Of a stretch of 64,000 nucleotides of DNA, positions 19,792-26,348 are shown in pieces. How positions within the stretch are numbered: position 1 is the stretch's first letter; each line of letters opens with the position of its first letter. The translations under genes and the position numbers were made by a program. The DNA is from Paramecium tetraurelia. Lineage: Eukaryota; Ciliophora; Oligohymenophorea; Peniculida; Parameciidae. The notes beneath the pieces were generated by a model. That model had not been told where the DNA came from, did not search any database, and was given only the letters and a program-made list of their open reading frames with translations. Location of the stretch: NCBI RefSeq assembly GCF_000165425.1, contig NW_001799635.1, forward strand, positions 62,001-126,000. The letters run 5' to 3'.

Positions 19792-21534
19792 TCATTAATT
19801 TTTTTACTCATCATCAACTTCATAAATTGCTTAATGTTAGTGATAATTTTTATAAGTAAACTTTCGTTTTAATGTTTAACTCTATACAAGTTTAGGACTA
19901 TTGTTAATGATTAATGTAGGATGTTGTCTAGCTGAATCTGGTGAACAAGTATCAGGTGACTGTTGATCGAATTCTTAAGTAGAAAATTTTTTAAATGCAC
20001 TCTTTTTAGGGTTTTCTGTAGGTGAACCATCAGCTAATGCTAAATTTTTACGTTTAGCGTGTTATGCTAATCTTGGACTATTCATAACAGGAACTTTAAT
20101 TTTAATTTTTTCATCTTCTACTTCATCCTCATCTCTTTATTTTGATTTCTATTTGATCTCTGGCAGTTGTAATTTATCTGATTTTTCCATTCGAAATGTG
20201 GAAGTCTGCCATAACTTCCCTTATCCAGAGCCTTTTTTCTAGGATTAGAATTTCAATTTTCTATCAGTAAAACCTCCCGAAAAAAATGGATGTTCCAAGG
20301 CCTATTATGCAGAGATTCTCTAATGTGGATCCACTTATAACATTAATTAAATAAGTTCCATGGCTGCTTAAGGCGTTCTGTAAATGCTTAGATTATCTAA
20401 ATTGATAATGCACTTCTTATTCAACTTTAAGATTTCATGATAATCATTTCCTGGAAACAAATCCTTTGAAGTGATTCTAATAAGCTTAACCATAAAATAG
20501 TTACAATTTATAGAAAATGCATCCCACACTAAAGATATCGCAAATCTTATCATATTTGAAAGTTAAATCTCTAAGATTTGCTATCTCAGGTGCGACATAT
20601 CCAGGTGTGCCACATTTGGGAAATGGGTAATTTTAGACATGGGTTTATGTTGCTAAACCAAAATCTACAATTCTCAATCCTGTGATTTAATTAGCTTCTT
20701 TAAACATAATATTTTCAGGTTTTAAATCTCTGTGCATTATGTCCAATTGATGCATTCTTGCAACTCCTGTCAAGATTTGCTATAAGACTAGAAATAGATA
20801 AATACCCATAATATTGATTTGATTTAGTCCCAGTTTAATTGTGTTAGTTACCCTTTACTTAAGACGTCGTGTAATGAGTTCCCTTTGAGATGTTCAAGTA
20901 TCAAATAAAATGTATTTTCTCCTTCATAGACTTCCTCCAATTTTACAACAGATTCGTGATCTAATATGGCCATCAAATTTATCTCGTTAAACAAGGCTTG
21001 CTAATAATATATTTCATATTTTACAAATCCACCATCTTCTTTTAGATATCTCTTTTCAACACATTTTGATGCGAAATCGTGCTTGTTATCTTTATCCACT
21101 ACAAGGTACACCTAGGAATAATGAAGATGTTTACTTTAGAAGATCCTCCCTTCCCTAATAATTTCAAGGGTTAATAGAAATCACTCACATCCTTGAACAT
21201 GATTTTATTTCTGAGATGAAATTTCAATTTTCTGATTTCCTCATCTTTAGCAACAAAATATTTGACTGAACCTTTGTACTCAAACCCAAATTAAGAAAGT
21301 TATCTGTCCTTTTCAAAAGTCCAACAAATCCTGGTTTCAAAATTCAATGGTAGTTAATATTTAGGCTATTAAGATTCGAGTTCCTTGAAAATTAATATTA
21401 ATGTGTACATTGGTAAGAATCATAGTGTCATCGATGATATATAGAAAGTAAGTGATATCTTTTAGTATATGCTTTCTCTGGCAAATTGTGCTGAAAGTTG
21501 CTAGGTCGTAATTGATTTGTGTTTTGCTTTGCAT
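19792..21534 (-). CDS. CAMK-like Ser/Thr kinase with long N-terminal extension
   Basis: Encodes 546 aa. Introns are 21384–21408, 21112–21134, 20780–20805 and 20477–20504. Residues about 1–120 form a non-kinase domain (FETRICWTFEKD, YKGSVKYFVAKDEEIRKLK) that looks PH-like. The kinase domain follows: LLGKGGSSKVYLV (P-loop), DFASKCVEK, MHRDLKPENIM, VDFGLA, GTPGYVAPEIA and DIFSVGCIFYKLL. The C-terminal 150 residues are Ser/Thr/Lys-rich. Ciliates carry many such kinases and no precise orthologue can be named. Its stop is convergent with MOK, 187 bp apart. Confidence 0.87.
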
Positions 21535-21724: not shown

Positions 21725-23880
21725 TCAGAATTCATCATCAGATAGCACATCATAAGTATGAAAATACTATTTTGATATTTGAGTTTACATGATTCCTATT
21801 TTAATGTCCATATCTCTTATGTCATTCTTTCATAATAATAATATCAGTACTCTCAATTAATTGATTAATTATTTTTGTTTAGATCTATTATCAGCCAAAA
21901 CCGGTGTTCTTTCTTTTACATCCAATAACTATTAATTTAATTGTTGATCAATCTCCTATTTCTCACTGTTTCCTTTATTCAATTGAGAAATTTGAAATTG
22001 TAAATTAGATATCGTATTCCTGTTCTCTTTTAAAGTAATTTAAACGTTTTCAGGAATTTACTGAGTAACATTAGTTTCTAATTTGGGTAACAACTCTAGA
22101 TAATTAATCCATTATTATTATATTTCCTAAACTTCGCTCGACTTCAAGTGTTCAGAGAGTATAGATAATTACTTAAATTATAAATGGAATTACTTTAGAA
22201 CATTTGGAAATTGTGATTATTGTTCTCTCATAATCTTTTAGATATTGTTTATTAACCTTAAGATTAGCCTCAAATTTAGAGAACTCCTTCTCAACCCTAT
22301 TAAACTCTTTAGTCCATTCATTCATTGCAACTTTGGTTTCAATCACTTATCTATCTTAAGGAACTTGATTGTAATCAGTTGATTCATTATTATATTTCTT
22401 ATGATAAAATAGTATACTCTGAGTTAACTCATCTTATTCAACTTCTTCATTTTCATTCTCTTCCTCTTAAATCTCAACAAGATCTTCATTATCTATTTTA
22501 TTAACCTAAATCACAGAGCTTTCCAAATCTTTACCAAAATTGGGGGATTCAAATTTAAAATTTATTCTAATTAATTCTCTATTGAGTAAATCATTTAAAA
22601 TGAAGCAAACCATATCTCCACATCCTTATGAAATATGAGGAGATCCCAATTACTCTGGCAATTTTATACCCCATGCTTTGATATCAATAAGCAATTTTCT
22701 GGCAGTTTCTTCAACATTATGATAATTAAGTTTGATTGGTTGTGCCATTTTATTCTTTTTCTGTTTAGGCAAACTCATTAACCAGTAGCATAACTCAACG
22801 AAGTAATAGAACCTTTGATTTTGATTTACATTTTCATCTAAAGAAAAATAATATTTTGAAACTGGTTTCTTCTTCAAAGGAATACAGAAATATTCATGAT
22901 ATTGAACCAATGACAACTTTTCATAGATGTCCTTTATAAATTACATGATTTAATTACTTCCATCATCAAAACATTAATTATCTATGGAGTCTTCTTAGTG
23001 TCAAGAAAAGTATTGTGAATTTCTTTTGATTTCTATAAAACGGTGCTTGCATCAAGTCTTTTTTACGGATCGACTACAATCATGCCTTCTATGACATCCC
23101 TTAATTATTGGCTATATCGATTCGAGACTGGTTTAAATTCCCCTTTGGTGATATTATTAAATAAATCCATGAGAGACATCTTCTCGCTTTATTTGAAGGG
23201 ACTCTTGAACTCTGCCATCTCATATGCGATGCATCCCAATGACCAGATATCTGATTTCATATCATACCCTTCGCCATGAAGGAGCTCTTCCTTTTTAATG
23301 ATAATTTACCTCAGGTGACATATATAATGGTGTTCCAACTTTAGAGTAAGCCTCTATAGTCTCCGATGAAAATATGCGACCCAAACCCAAATCTCCAACT
23401 TTCAATGAGCCATCTCCTCCTATAAATATATTGGCTGGTTTCAAATCTCTGTGCATTATCCTCTTTTCATGCATATGGTCCAATGCACTTGCTATTTGCA
23501 TTATGTAATTCCATAATTGCACTTCCTCAAATGGAGTGTCATCAGATTAAGCATTTTTAATTAGTTTTTTCAAATCTCCCCTCTCTGCCCACTCTGTAGC
23601 TATAATCAATTCGTTGTTGTAAATGAATGAGTCCAAGTATTTTATAATGTTAGGATGATCCAAAGGCTGCATTAGTTTCACCTCTTTTAAGCATTTCTCC
23701 CTTTGTTTTGGATCCATCATATCAAAAATCTAACATAAATTCACAAATCACTTTAATCTTCTTCAATGCAACAACATTCCCCTCCTTATTCATCGCCTTG
23801 TACACCGTCGAGAATTTCCCCTCGCCTATGGCTTTTTAGACCTTGTATCCATTTATTTCTTGATCAATAAATTGAGACAT
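21725..23880 (-). CDS. NEK6/7-like kinase fused in frame to IFT57
   Basis: One spliced frame encodes 680 aa. Introns are 23730–23751, 23291–23309, 22932–22957, 22172–22193 and 21827–21850. Residues 1 to about 285 are a NEK kinase: [72 protein letters not shown] and DIWSLGC, closest to NEK6/7. No TGA follows. The frame passes through MMED at 22976 and, across intron 22932–22957, into a complete IFT57 (HIPPI). That part has MEDIYEKL…KYYFSL, the CH-like N-domain, [14 protein letters not shown] [14 protein letters not shown], coiled coil, and the C-terminal [10 protein letters not shown] signature. IFT57 is an IFT-B subunit. Alternative: IFT57 begins at 22976 or 22949 as a separate gene and NEK ends at a TGA reached by reading through the unspliced intron. 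Confidence 0.82.
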
Positions 23881-23889
23881 TATTTAATA

Positions 23890-24497
23890 ATGTTAAATAC
23901 AAAACTAACTAAGTTCATAGATTCAAAAGCAGATCAGGTCAATTCATAGCTTAAGTCTGCTCAAAACACCATGCAAAACCAGACATCTCAATTAACTAAT
24001 TAAATTACAGAAGCAAATCAAACTATGAAGGTTGCTGCTCCTTTACTAAAAGCCATGGGTAAAGCTCTAATCCTATTTTTTTTAAAGGTCATTCAGAAGC
24101 TGCCCAAATTTCCAAGGGATTAGATTTGGCTTCAAAGAACCTGGTACCTATTATAGATTAGACCAATAAAACTATACAAAAGGGCACTGATATCGTTAAT
24201 TCTTAAATTTAAAAAGCATCTACCTTAGCAAATTAGTAAATTCAGAAAATTAATGTAAAATCTATATATCAATAATAAAGGAACAAGTTATGCCATAAAT
24301 AGAATCGGGTTAACAGATAATAAAATAATAATATGAAAAAGGAATGGAGGCGATTAAAGAAAATTAAAATTTTTAATCTATTGCTGTAAAAGCTGCAGTA
24401 ATAGGAATGGCAGTGAATTAAATAATGGAAACTCCAACAGATGATGGATCGGAAATATTGAATTAAAGAAAAGAAAATACATAATAATAACAATAAC

Positions 24498-24538
<41 letters not shown>

Positions 24539-24542
24539 TAAC

Positions 24543-24622
<80 letters not shown>

Positions 24623-26348
24623 TAATAGTCAATTAATTATAATACAACAAACTATATAAATACAGATCTTAATAAATAATAGTTAAAATAAGAATCTCAT
24701 TTCTTTCAAAATAAAATTAAATAATATATTAAAAAAATAACAGGGAAATAAGTTAATTCAAGAATTGAATATTTATGTCTTATCTAATAAAAATTAAAAG
24801 ATAATATTGATTCCAATTACTTGTCACAATCAAAATAATCATTAAAAAATGAAATGTGGAAAGCTGCTTATTAAGAGAGAAGAATTTAAAGTCATCAAAT
24901 TTTCGTATAGTATATGACAAAAATGGTTGAATTCATTTTTGAATACTTAACAATTGTTGAAACAGTATTTTAACAAATCAAAATGAGATACAAATCTTCC
25001 AATAATTCATTTGAAATGATTCTTAACTATTGCAACAATTTATCAATACAATTAGATTACTACACAACCTATAGTTATGTTTAACCATAGTAAAAATTCT
25101 TGAGTAGACTATTCACCAATTAAACAAAATAGTAAATAAAAAATGGTTAAAAAATGAAAAAATCAACCAAATCAAGTAACTAAAATGAAAATGCAGAAAC
25201 TCAAAATTAACAACAGAAGGAGGAGAAGGAAGATGTACAATTCTACCATCAAGAGCTATGCTAAAACTTTAATAATCTCGAGAGTGAATATTAATTGCAT
25301 ACAAATAATATCCAAATATTAAAGAACAATTTGAAAGGAGAATTAAGAGATAAATTAATAATATGCCAATAAATGAATCAATAAAAGATATCTGATTATT
25401 TGATGTAGGTTCAAGGTTAAAGAAATATCACTTTTGAGGCAGTCGAACAATTTTACAAGAGTTTCATCCAATATGAATAAATCTATTCTTAAAATGTAGA
25501 AGCAGCCTTTGAGGGAGGACAACAGATAAAAGATATCTACAATGAAGAATACAGAATGTATTGTAAATAATTAATTAAATTTAGATTATTTTAAATCCCT
25601 CATAAGATAATAGTAATAGTTTGGATTATTTACAACATATATTCTTAAAGAAATATCCCAATTTGAATACACACGAATAGAATTCCTTTAGAAAGCATTC
25701 ACACAATTAGCTGCCGAATTGGGAAAGTATTTTCAATTTCCAAACTAAAAAGCAATTAATTTCTCAAATCCATTAATATTATAATAGGCAAAGACAGCAT
25801 TTGACATAAATTAATTATTAACATCTGAATAGCTTGTAATAATCAAGAAATACTCAGGAATACCTCTACAGAATAACATTTCCACAGATATATATTCAGC
25901 ATTTGCTTCAAATTTCACAAGTAAGTAATATTCAAATTTTAGTACCTTCCCCCGAATCTCTTATGTCATTGTCTCCTTTGATTCTAAAAAAGTATGATGT
26001 TAAAAGGGATGTGGCATGGGAAAGATCATTAAGTTTTGGCAAAGACTTTGTGCCAACCAGTTTCATAATAACTGTTGATGGGTTTCTGCTATTTTATGAT
26101 ACAGATTGGAAGGAACAGAATAATGAGGAGCCAATTTAATGTCATAATTTCATGGTCATAAATGAAGTATTTAATGTGATATAATTCAACAGTTAGCGAT
26201 AAAGGAGAGATAAAGTGATGAGAATGTCGTAGAGTTGATTGTGAAGAAGCAAGGGAAACTGTTTGATACACATAAGAAATAAATATTAATGATGAATGAT
26301 GTAATGGAGAAGGAATCCCTAAAATTATTACTAAATTAATTTAAATGA
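23890..26348 (+). CDS. Large coiled-coil protein with 49-residue polyglutamine tract and PH-like C-terminus
   Basis: Encodes 777 aa. Introns are 24059–24087, 24255–24280, 25563–25584, 25921–25942 and 26167–26192. Residues 1 to about 170 are helical (AH/BAR- or SNARE-like spacing of Gln and hydrophobics). A 49-Gln run follows (24482–24628), then a helical region with motifs such as YMTKMVEFIFEYLTIVE and YCNNLSIQLDYY. The C-terminal 120 residues (VPTSFIITVDGFLLFYDT, NVVELIVKKQGKLFDT) look PH-like. The helical-bundle plus PH layout suggests a membrane-binding BAR–PH-like protein; this is inference. The start lies only 9 bp from the divergent NEK–IFT57 start, so a later ATG (near 23970) is possible. 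Confidence 0.77.
24482..24628 (+). repeat. Trinucleotide (TAA)n microsatellite encoding polyglutamine
   Basis: 147 bp of uninterrupted in-frame TAA codons with a few CAA and one final TAG. Under the ciliate code this is 49 consecutive glutamines. On the other strand, or in the shifted frames, it looks like poly-Leu, poly-Ile or poly-Asn, so standard-code gene finders will mis-call it. Confidence 0.95.

Follow-up and report, generated by a model that had tools for sequence, protein, structure and literature searches.

A gene of Paramecium tetraurelia joins a NIMA-related kinase (NEK) in frame to a homologue of the intraflagellar-transport (IFT) protein IFT57, and, judged from its sequence, it is near certain that this fusion is real and is a single gene and protein. 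We favour, with a probability of about 0.62, the reading that the product is one protein of about 79 kDa that combines an active NEK6/7-type kinase with an IFT57 paralogue, that the fusion is ancestral, and that it carries the kinase to the IFT-B complex. The gene lies within the window, the whole stretch of 64,000 nucleotides that was analysed. A preliminary description had interpreted it as a NEK kinase tethered directly to IFT-B, and as a whole this interpretation is partly supported. The gene structure, its conservation, the catalytic residues in place and the selection on the protein are observed directly.

The start ATG is at 23880, and with TGA as the only stop codon the first TGA of the spliced frame ends at 21725. 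The gene model thus confirms the frame, the end points and the single TGA-terminated NEK-IFT57 gene that had been described. The model contains 678 amino acids and five phase-0 introns, with 119 nt of intron in total. The features of the window copy (C216) are as follows; C22 and C215 are two further fused copies in the same genome.

21725..23880, minus strand: NEK-IFT57 fusion gene, 6 exons, 678 amino acids, single TGA stop (gene model; Pfam PF00069 and PF10498)
23030..23847, minus strand: NEK6/7-type kinase domain, residues 12-268, split by introns 1 and 2 (PF00069, 221 bits)
23730..23751, minus strand: intron 1, 22 nt, phase 0, GTG...TAG, position shared with the C22 and C215 copies
23285..23309, minus strand: intron 2, 25 nt, phase 0; the window copy would also stay in frame with a 19-nt intron
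22964..23029, minus strand: linker, residues 269-290 (...KKTPQIINVLM), 22 codons, no TGA
21776..22963, minus strand: IFT57-homologous half, residues 291-662, split by introns 3, 4 and 5 (PF10498, 264.9 bits)
22932..22957, minus strand: intron 3 (linking intron), 26 nt, GTAATT...AAAG, phase 0, between GAA and GAC
22172..22193, minus strand: intron 4, 22 nt, phase 0
21827..21850, minus strand: intron 5, 24 nt, phase 0

Some details of the earlier model change. The introns had been counted as 113 nt and the protein as 681 codons, and these figures are corrected to 119 nt and 678 amino acids plus stop. A length of 25 nt is the best reading of intron 2, because only this form was found to keep the frame in the C215 copy and because the annotated P. 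octaurelia protein (P0001) reads SPELLHGEG across the site; the 19-nt form was considered and replaced on these grounds. The linking intron stands as claimed, in phase 0 and at the same place in the three fused copies (26 nt in C22 and 23 nt in C215). Its AAAG acceptor had been regarded as the weak point. However, it is used in all three fused copies, and AAG ends 6 of the 28 introns in the models of the four ordinary IFT57 genes, so the acceptor is no weakness. The NEK frame indeed runs without a stop to the IFT57 methionines, but the two Met codons are located at 22966-22961 and not at 22976.

Two neighbouring stretches were also noted. On the strand of the fusion and shortly downstream of it, several short frames of kinase-like sequence (20444-21419, minus strand) look by eye like another kinase gene, distinct from the fusion, and matching sequence is present in the colinear C22 region. 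A long run of TAA/AAT repeats occupies 24480-24640 and reads as poly-Gln in one plus-strand frame under the ciliate code.

A search of the whole genome for the IFT57 family gave 15 exon matches at seven loci. At three of them (C216, C22 and C215), NEK lies immediately upstream of IFT57. These loci also provide the top six of the 133 matches listed for the NEK half in a genome search that scored 132 of 2215 candidate places. All other kinases listed match the NEK half much less well, with at most 166 bits and at most 46% identity. The models of the fused loci contain 678, 678 and 679 residues; all have five introns in phase 0 at matching positions, and none has an internal TGA. Since the surrounding regions are colinear, with close agreement at C22 and with gaps at C215, the three loci are most likely duplicates from whole-genome duplications.

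At the four remaining loci lie ordinary IFT57 genes, each modelled with 379-381 residues and seven introns. By this count of loci, the fused gene is not the sole source of IFT57 in the cell. Upstream of each ordinary gene, a TGA closes the frame no more than about 135 bases from the modelled start of IFT57; by eye this frame looks like the last exon of another gene. A short ATG peptide (MSEQQ...) is also seen upstream of the ordinary genes (L004-L007). It suggests that ordinary Paramecium IFT57 begins one exon before the modelled MMED/MMDE, and the modelled start Met may then be internal as well. A 2018 paper in J Eukaryot Microbiol reportedly deals with Paramecium IFT57A-D.

The kinase half is assigned to the NEK6/7 type, as the preliminary description had done. 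Ten of the 11 solved structures that match it below an E value of 1e-45 are NEK7 (best 2wqm, E 1.3e-82) and the other is NEK1 (E 2.9e-52); the scores are 275-281 bits for NEK7 and 181 bits for NEK1. It shares the DLG motif and the activation-loop Ser with NEK6 and NEK7. The window copy keeps HRD, DLG, an APE-type Glu, the VAIK Lys, the glycine loop and activation-loop Ser172, which we take to match the NEK7 phosphosite. HRD, the DLG Asp, the APE Glu and the activation-loop Ser are kept in all 103 aligned relatives. The VAIK Lys is found in 74 of the 103 (29 gaps) and the glycine loop in 72 (31 gaps), where the gaps are mostly late-starting models. From these catalytic residues, we infer that the kinase is active. 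Its dN/dS between C216 and C22 is 0.004. In one respect the protein departs from the type. NEK6/7-type kinases have no large domain after the kinase, and NEK7 chains in the PDB are of about 280-310 residues, whereas here a 386-residue IFT57 half begins 22 residues on.

The IFT57 half is full-length, as had been claimed. It matches PF10498 with 264.9 bits (cut-off 40) over profile positions 1-360 of 360, and the only solved structures that match it are the IFT57 chains of 8bd7 and 8ruy, presumably from Chlamydomonas. The likeness to IFT57 (HIPPI), an IFT-B2 subunit, lies in this whole-length profile match and in the alignment to these chains. The fusion differs from IFT57 in its N-terminal kinase and in its divergence from the genome's four ordinary IFT57 genes. 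One ordinary model was compared (C45), and the fused half is 22-24% identical to it; the PF10498 score is 265 bits for the fused half and 352 bits for ordinary IFT57. By these comparisons, the fused half appears to be a diverged paralogue beside the four ordinary genes, so the fusion need not sit on every IFT-B complex. At this level of identity, partner binding may also have changed. An AlphaFold model built from five sequences is of low confidence (pLDDT 53.7).

Candidate partners of the IFT57 half are encoded in the genome. Four loci match IFT38 (C25, C181, C128 and C166) and two match IFT20 (C20 and C18), so partners for the IFT57 half exist. The number of loci is seven for IFT57, four for IFT38 and only two for IFT20. 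According to the available part of one source, the IFT57/38 pair is central to IFT-B2, its coil contacts IFT54/20, its CH domains interact with IFT172 and IFT80, and kinesin-2 binds at an interface formed by the four proteins IFT88/52/57/38 (PMC7561706). Regulation of ciliary disassembly by NEKs in Tetrahymena and Chlamydomonas is stated in the available part of another (PMC7592914). On the basis of these partners, the kinesin-2 interface and the roles of NEKs in disassembly, we propose a train-borne NEK and infer its incorporation into trains, its partners, its substrates and its ciliary effect. The fused half, with a putative calponin-homology-like N-terminal part and a C-terminal coiled coil, would fill the place of IFT57 in a subset of IFT-B2 and pair with IFT38. 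The kinase would thereby be carried to the IFT-B1/IFT-B2 interface, the docking site of kinesin-2. There, NEK would phosphorylate IFT-B, the motor or the axoneme, and this phosphorylation could tune train loading, turnaround or ciliary disassembly.

A less probable but serious alternative accepts the single fusion protein and places its IFT57-like half outside IFT-B. The half would then act as a module for targeting or dimerisation, which keeps NEK at basal bodies or other sites or controls the kinase activity. The presence of ordinary IFT57 at four separate loci, the low identity to C45 and the lower Pfam score all fit such a module, as does the faster evolution of the IFT57 half (dN between C216 and C22 is 0.033, compared with 0.002 for the kinase). 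On the other hand, the half still matches IFT57 over the complete profile, its C-terminal coiled-coil motif and IFT57-like N-terminal part can still be recognised, and its dN/dS is only 0.037 (C216 vs C22). We retain the fusion as a putative IFT-B subunit as the preferred reading.

Production of two proteins from adjacent genes is very improbable. In that case, intron 3 would be retained, NEK would end 27 codons later, and IFT57 would be made from its own Met. An unspliced linking intron does bring the NEK frame to a TGA at 22876-22874, 27 codons past the exon end and inside the IFT57 coding region, as predicted in the preliminary description. The junction Met that could serve as the separate start is present in all three copies and in 101 of the 103 aligned relatives (alignment A3, which includes 103 of 105 fused proteins; P0092 and P0104 are left out). 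Such presence alone decides nothing. In the two remaining proteins, of Pseudocohnilembus and Ichthyophthirius, Asn replaces the Met, and in the 8bd7 alignment the Met corresponds to chain residue 76 of IFT57 and is thus internal. The junction Met is therefore not a needed start, and a separate IFT57 start at this site is ruled out on these two grounds. Moreover, no stop or intergenic stretch separates the halves in any of the three copies, and no TGA lies in the NEK frame ahead of the IFT57 half, unlike in the frames upstream of the four ordinary IFT57 genes.

The linker itself changes as coding sequence between the closest copies. Over its 22 codons, C216 and C22 differ by seven synonymous changes and one nonsynonymous change, and one Gln codon is TAG, CAG and CAA in the three copies. 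Compared with C215, there are 14 nonsynonymous changes over the 22 codons, mostly in the first half, and TPQIINVL before the Met is unchanged. A linker of 19-22 residues is found in 63 of the 105 fused proteins among the matches listed. A chance join is excluded, because the halves meet in the same way at three paralogous loci and in several other alveolates. That relatives have fused proteins listed under transcriptome names also argues against two separate products.

These relatives were found in a protein search in which 105 of the 120 matches listed (the best 120 of 1004, from 8000 scored candidates) carry both halves. The PF00069 plus PF10498 architecture is annotated in P. octaurelia, P. 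pentaurelia and Pseudocohnilembus. Fused proteins also occur under the names Ichthyophthirius, Moneuplotes, Blepharisma, Polarella and Vitrella, and transcript-derived ones are labelled with taxids 71861 (Scrippsiella trochoidea) and 632150 (Azadinium spinosum). The fusion thus spans ciliates, three named dinoflagellates and one chromerid (Vitrella), which rules out an oddity restricted to Paramecium. No Tetrahymena-named entry is present among the 120 matches listed; most of these carry no organism label, so absence is not implied. Among the matches listed, 14 of the 105 fused proteins carry MMETSP or Trinity transcriptome names, which indicates that one mRNA carries both halves in these relatives, as distinct from Paramecium itself. 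Two Moneuplotes copies are on contigs of 2,496 and 2,760 bp, which we take to be the size of single-gene chromosomes in this group. An artefact of annotation or assembly that recurs across databases has next to no probability, since the fusion is present in raw DNA at three loci, junction residues are conserved across phyla, and transcriptome assemblies and gene-sized contigs are among the listed names, even though artefact fusions made up 54 of 105 flagged genes of a preliminary Tetrahymena annotation, according to the available part of the report (PMC3143110).

Other architectures were seen in the same search. The remaining 15 of the 120 listed proteins lack an IFT57 match and contain a tandem pair of NEK-like kinase domains (P0055, P0063, P0068, P0069, P0071, P0075, P0076, P0080, P0081, P0086, P0090, P0095, P0097, P0101 and P0107); P0086 is listed under the name Polarella glacialis. 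In P0106, a protein of 985 amino acids, the NEK and IFT57 halves are about 207 residues apart, and the IFT57 tree places this protein apart from the main fused group.

Quick IQ-TREE trees with SH-aLRT support only were built for each half from 49 of the 105 fused proteins and the three copies of this genome; rows were picked by word overlap, and five short proteins were barred. The two trees broadly agree. Both contain one group that joins Paramecium to Pseudocohnilembus and Ichthyophthirius, a second of Moneuplotes, a third that includes Blepharisma, and a fourth that includes the named dinoflagellates and Vitrella. In the IFT57 tree, which holds only five non-fused rows, has no fixed root and is weak at 24 of its 54 inner branches, 51 of the 52 fused rows form one group (SH-aLRT 94) apart from ordinary Paramecium IFT57 and the 8bd7 sequence. 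The kinase tree unites all 52 fused kinases (support 99) and separates them from NEK7 and three of the tandem-kinase proteins, with a long-branch warning on the tandem-kinase rows. Because the same architecture is found in other ciliates, dinoflagellates and Vitrella, the fusion is old. Ciliates, dinoflagellates and chromerids (ciliates and myzozoans) probably inherited it by vertical descent from their common ancestor. The simplest reading is one fusion event before the ciliate/myzozoan split, using a duplicated IFT57.

Related arrangements are known. RSK4 of Tetrahymena, a fusion of a NEK with a radial spoke protein, also combines a NIMA-related kinase with a ciliary structural protein in a ciliate; the partner there is a radial spoke protein and here it is IFT57 instead, as far as the available part of its description goes (PMC3143110). 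The words 'IFT' and 'intraflagellar' do not occur in the main text of that paper (PMC3143110). The cilium-length kinases LF4/MOK, ICK and CDPK1 likewise act on IFT trains or kinesin-2, but in the available parts of the sources they are separate proteins, whereas the fusion places NEK within a homologue of an IFT subunit (PMC6682161, PMC7561706). The statement that no NEK-IFT57 fusion had been described holds for the open-access titles and abstract openings listed in our searches, among which we found none. It does not hold for databases, which already contain the architecture as automatic annotation, for example as 'never in mitosis gene A-related kinase, putative'. The fusion of a NEK with an IFT-B subunit is new in this sense, being known as a database annotation and having no published description within that search.

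Alveolates could possess a built-in IFT-B kinase, although we put this forward only tentatively. An ancient NEK-IFT57 subunit would ride in trains beside ordinary IFT57 or, in lineages such as dinoflagellates, replace it. The composition of trains would then set the amount of kinase at the tip and, through it, the length and turnover of cilia. Between the recent copies C216 and C22, there is almost no amino-acid change in the kinase. In inventories of alveolate IFT, a second, fused kind of IFT57 is to be counted beside ordinary IFT57, and the fused kinase makes train-borne control of ciliary length and disassembly directly testable in Paramecium.
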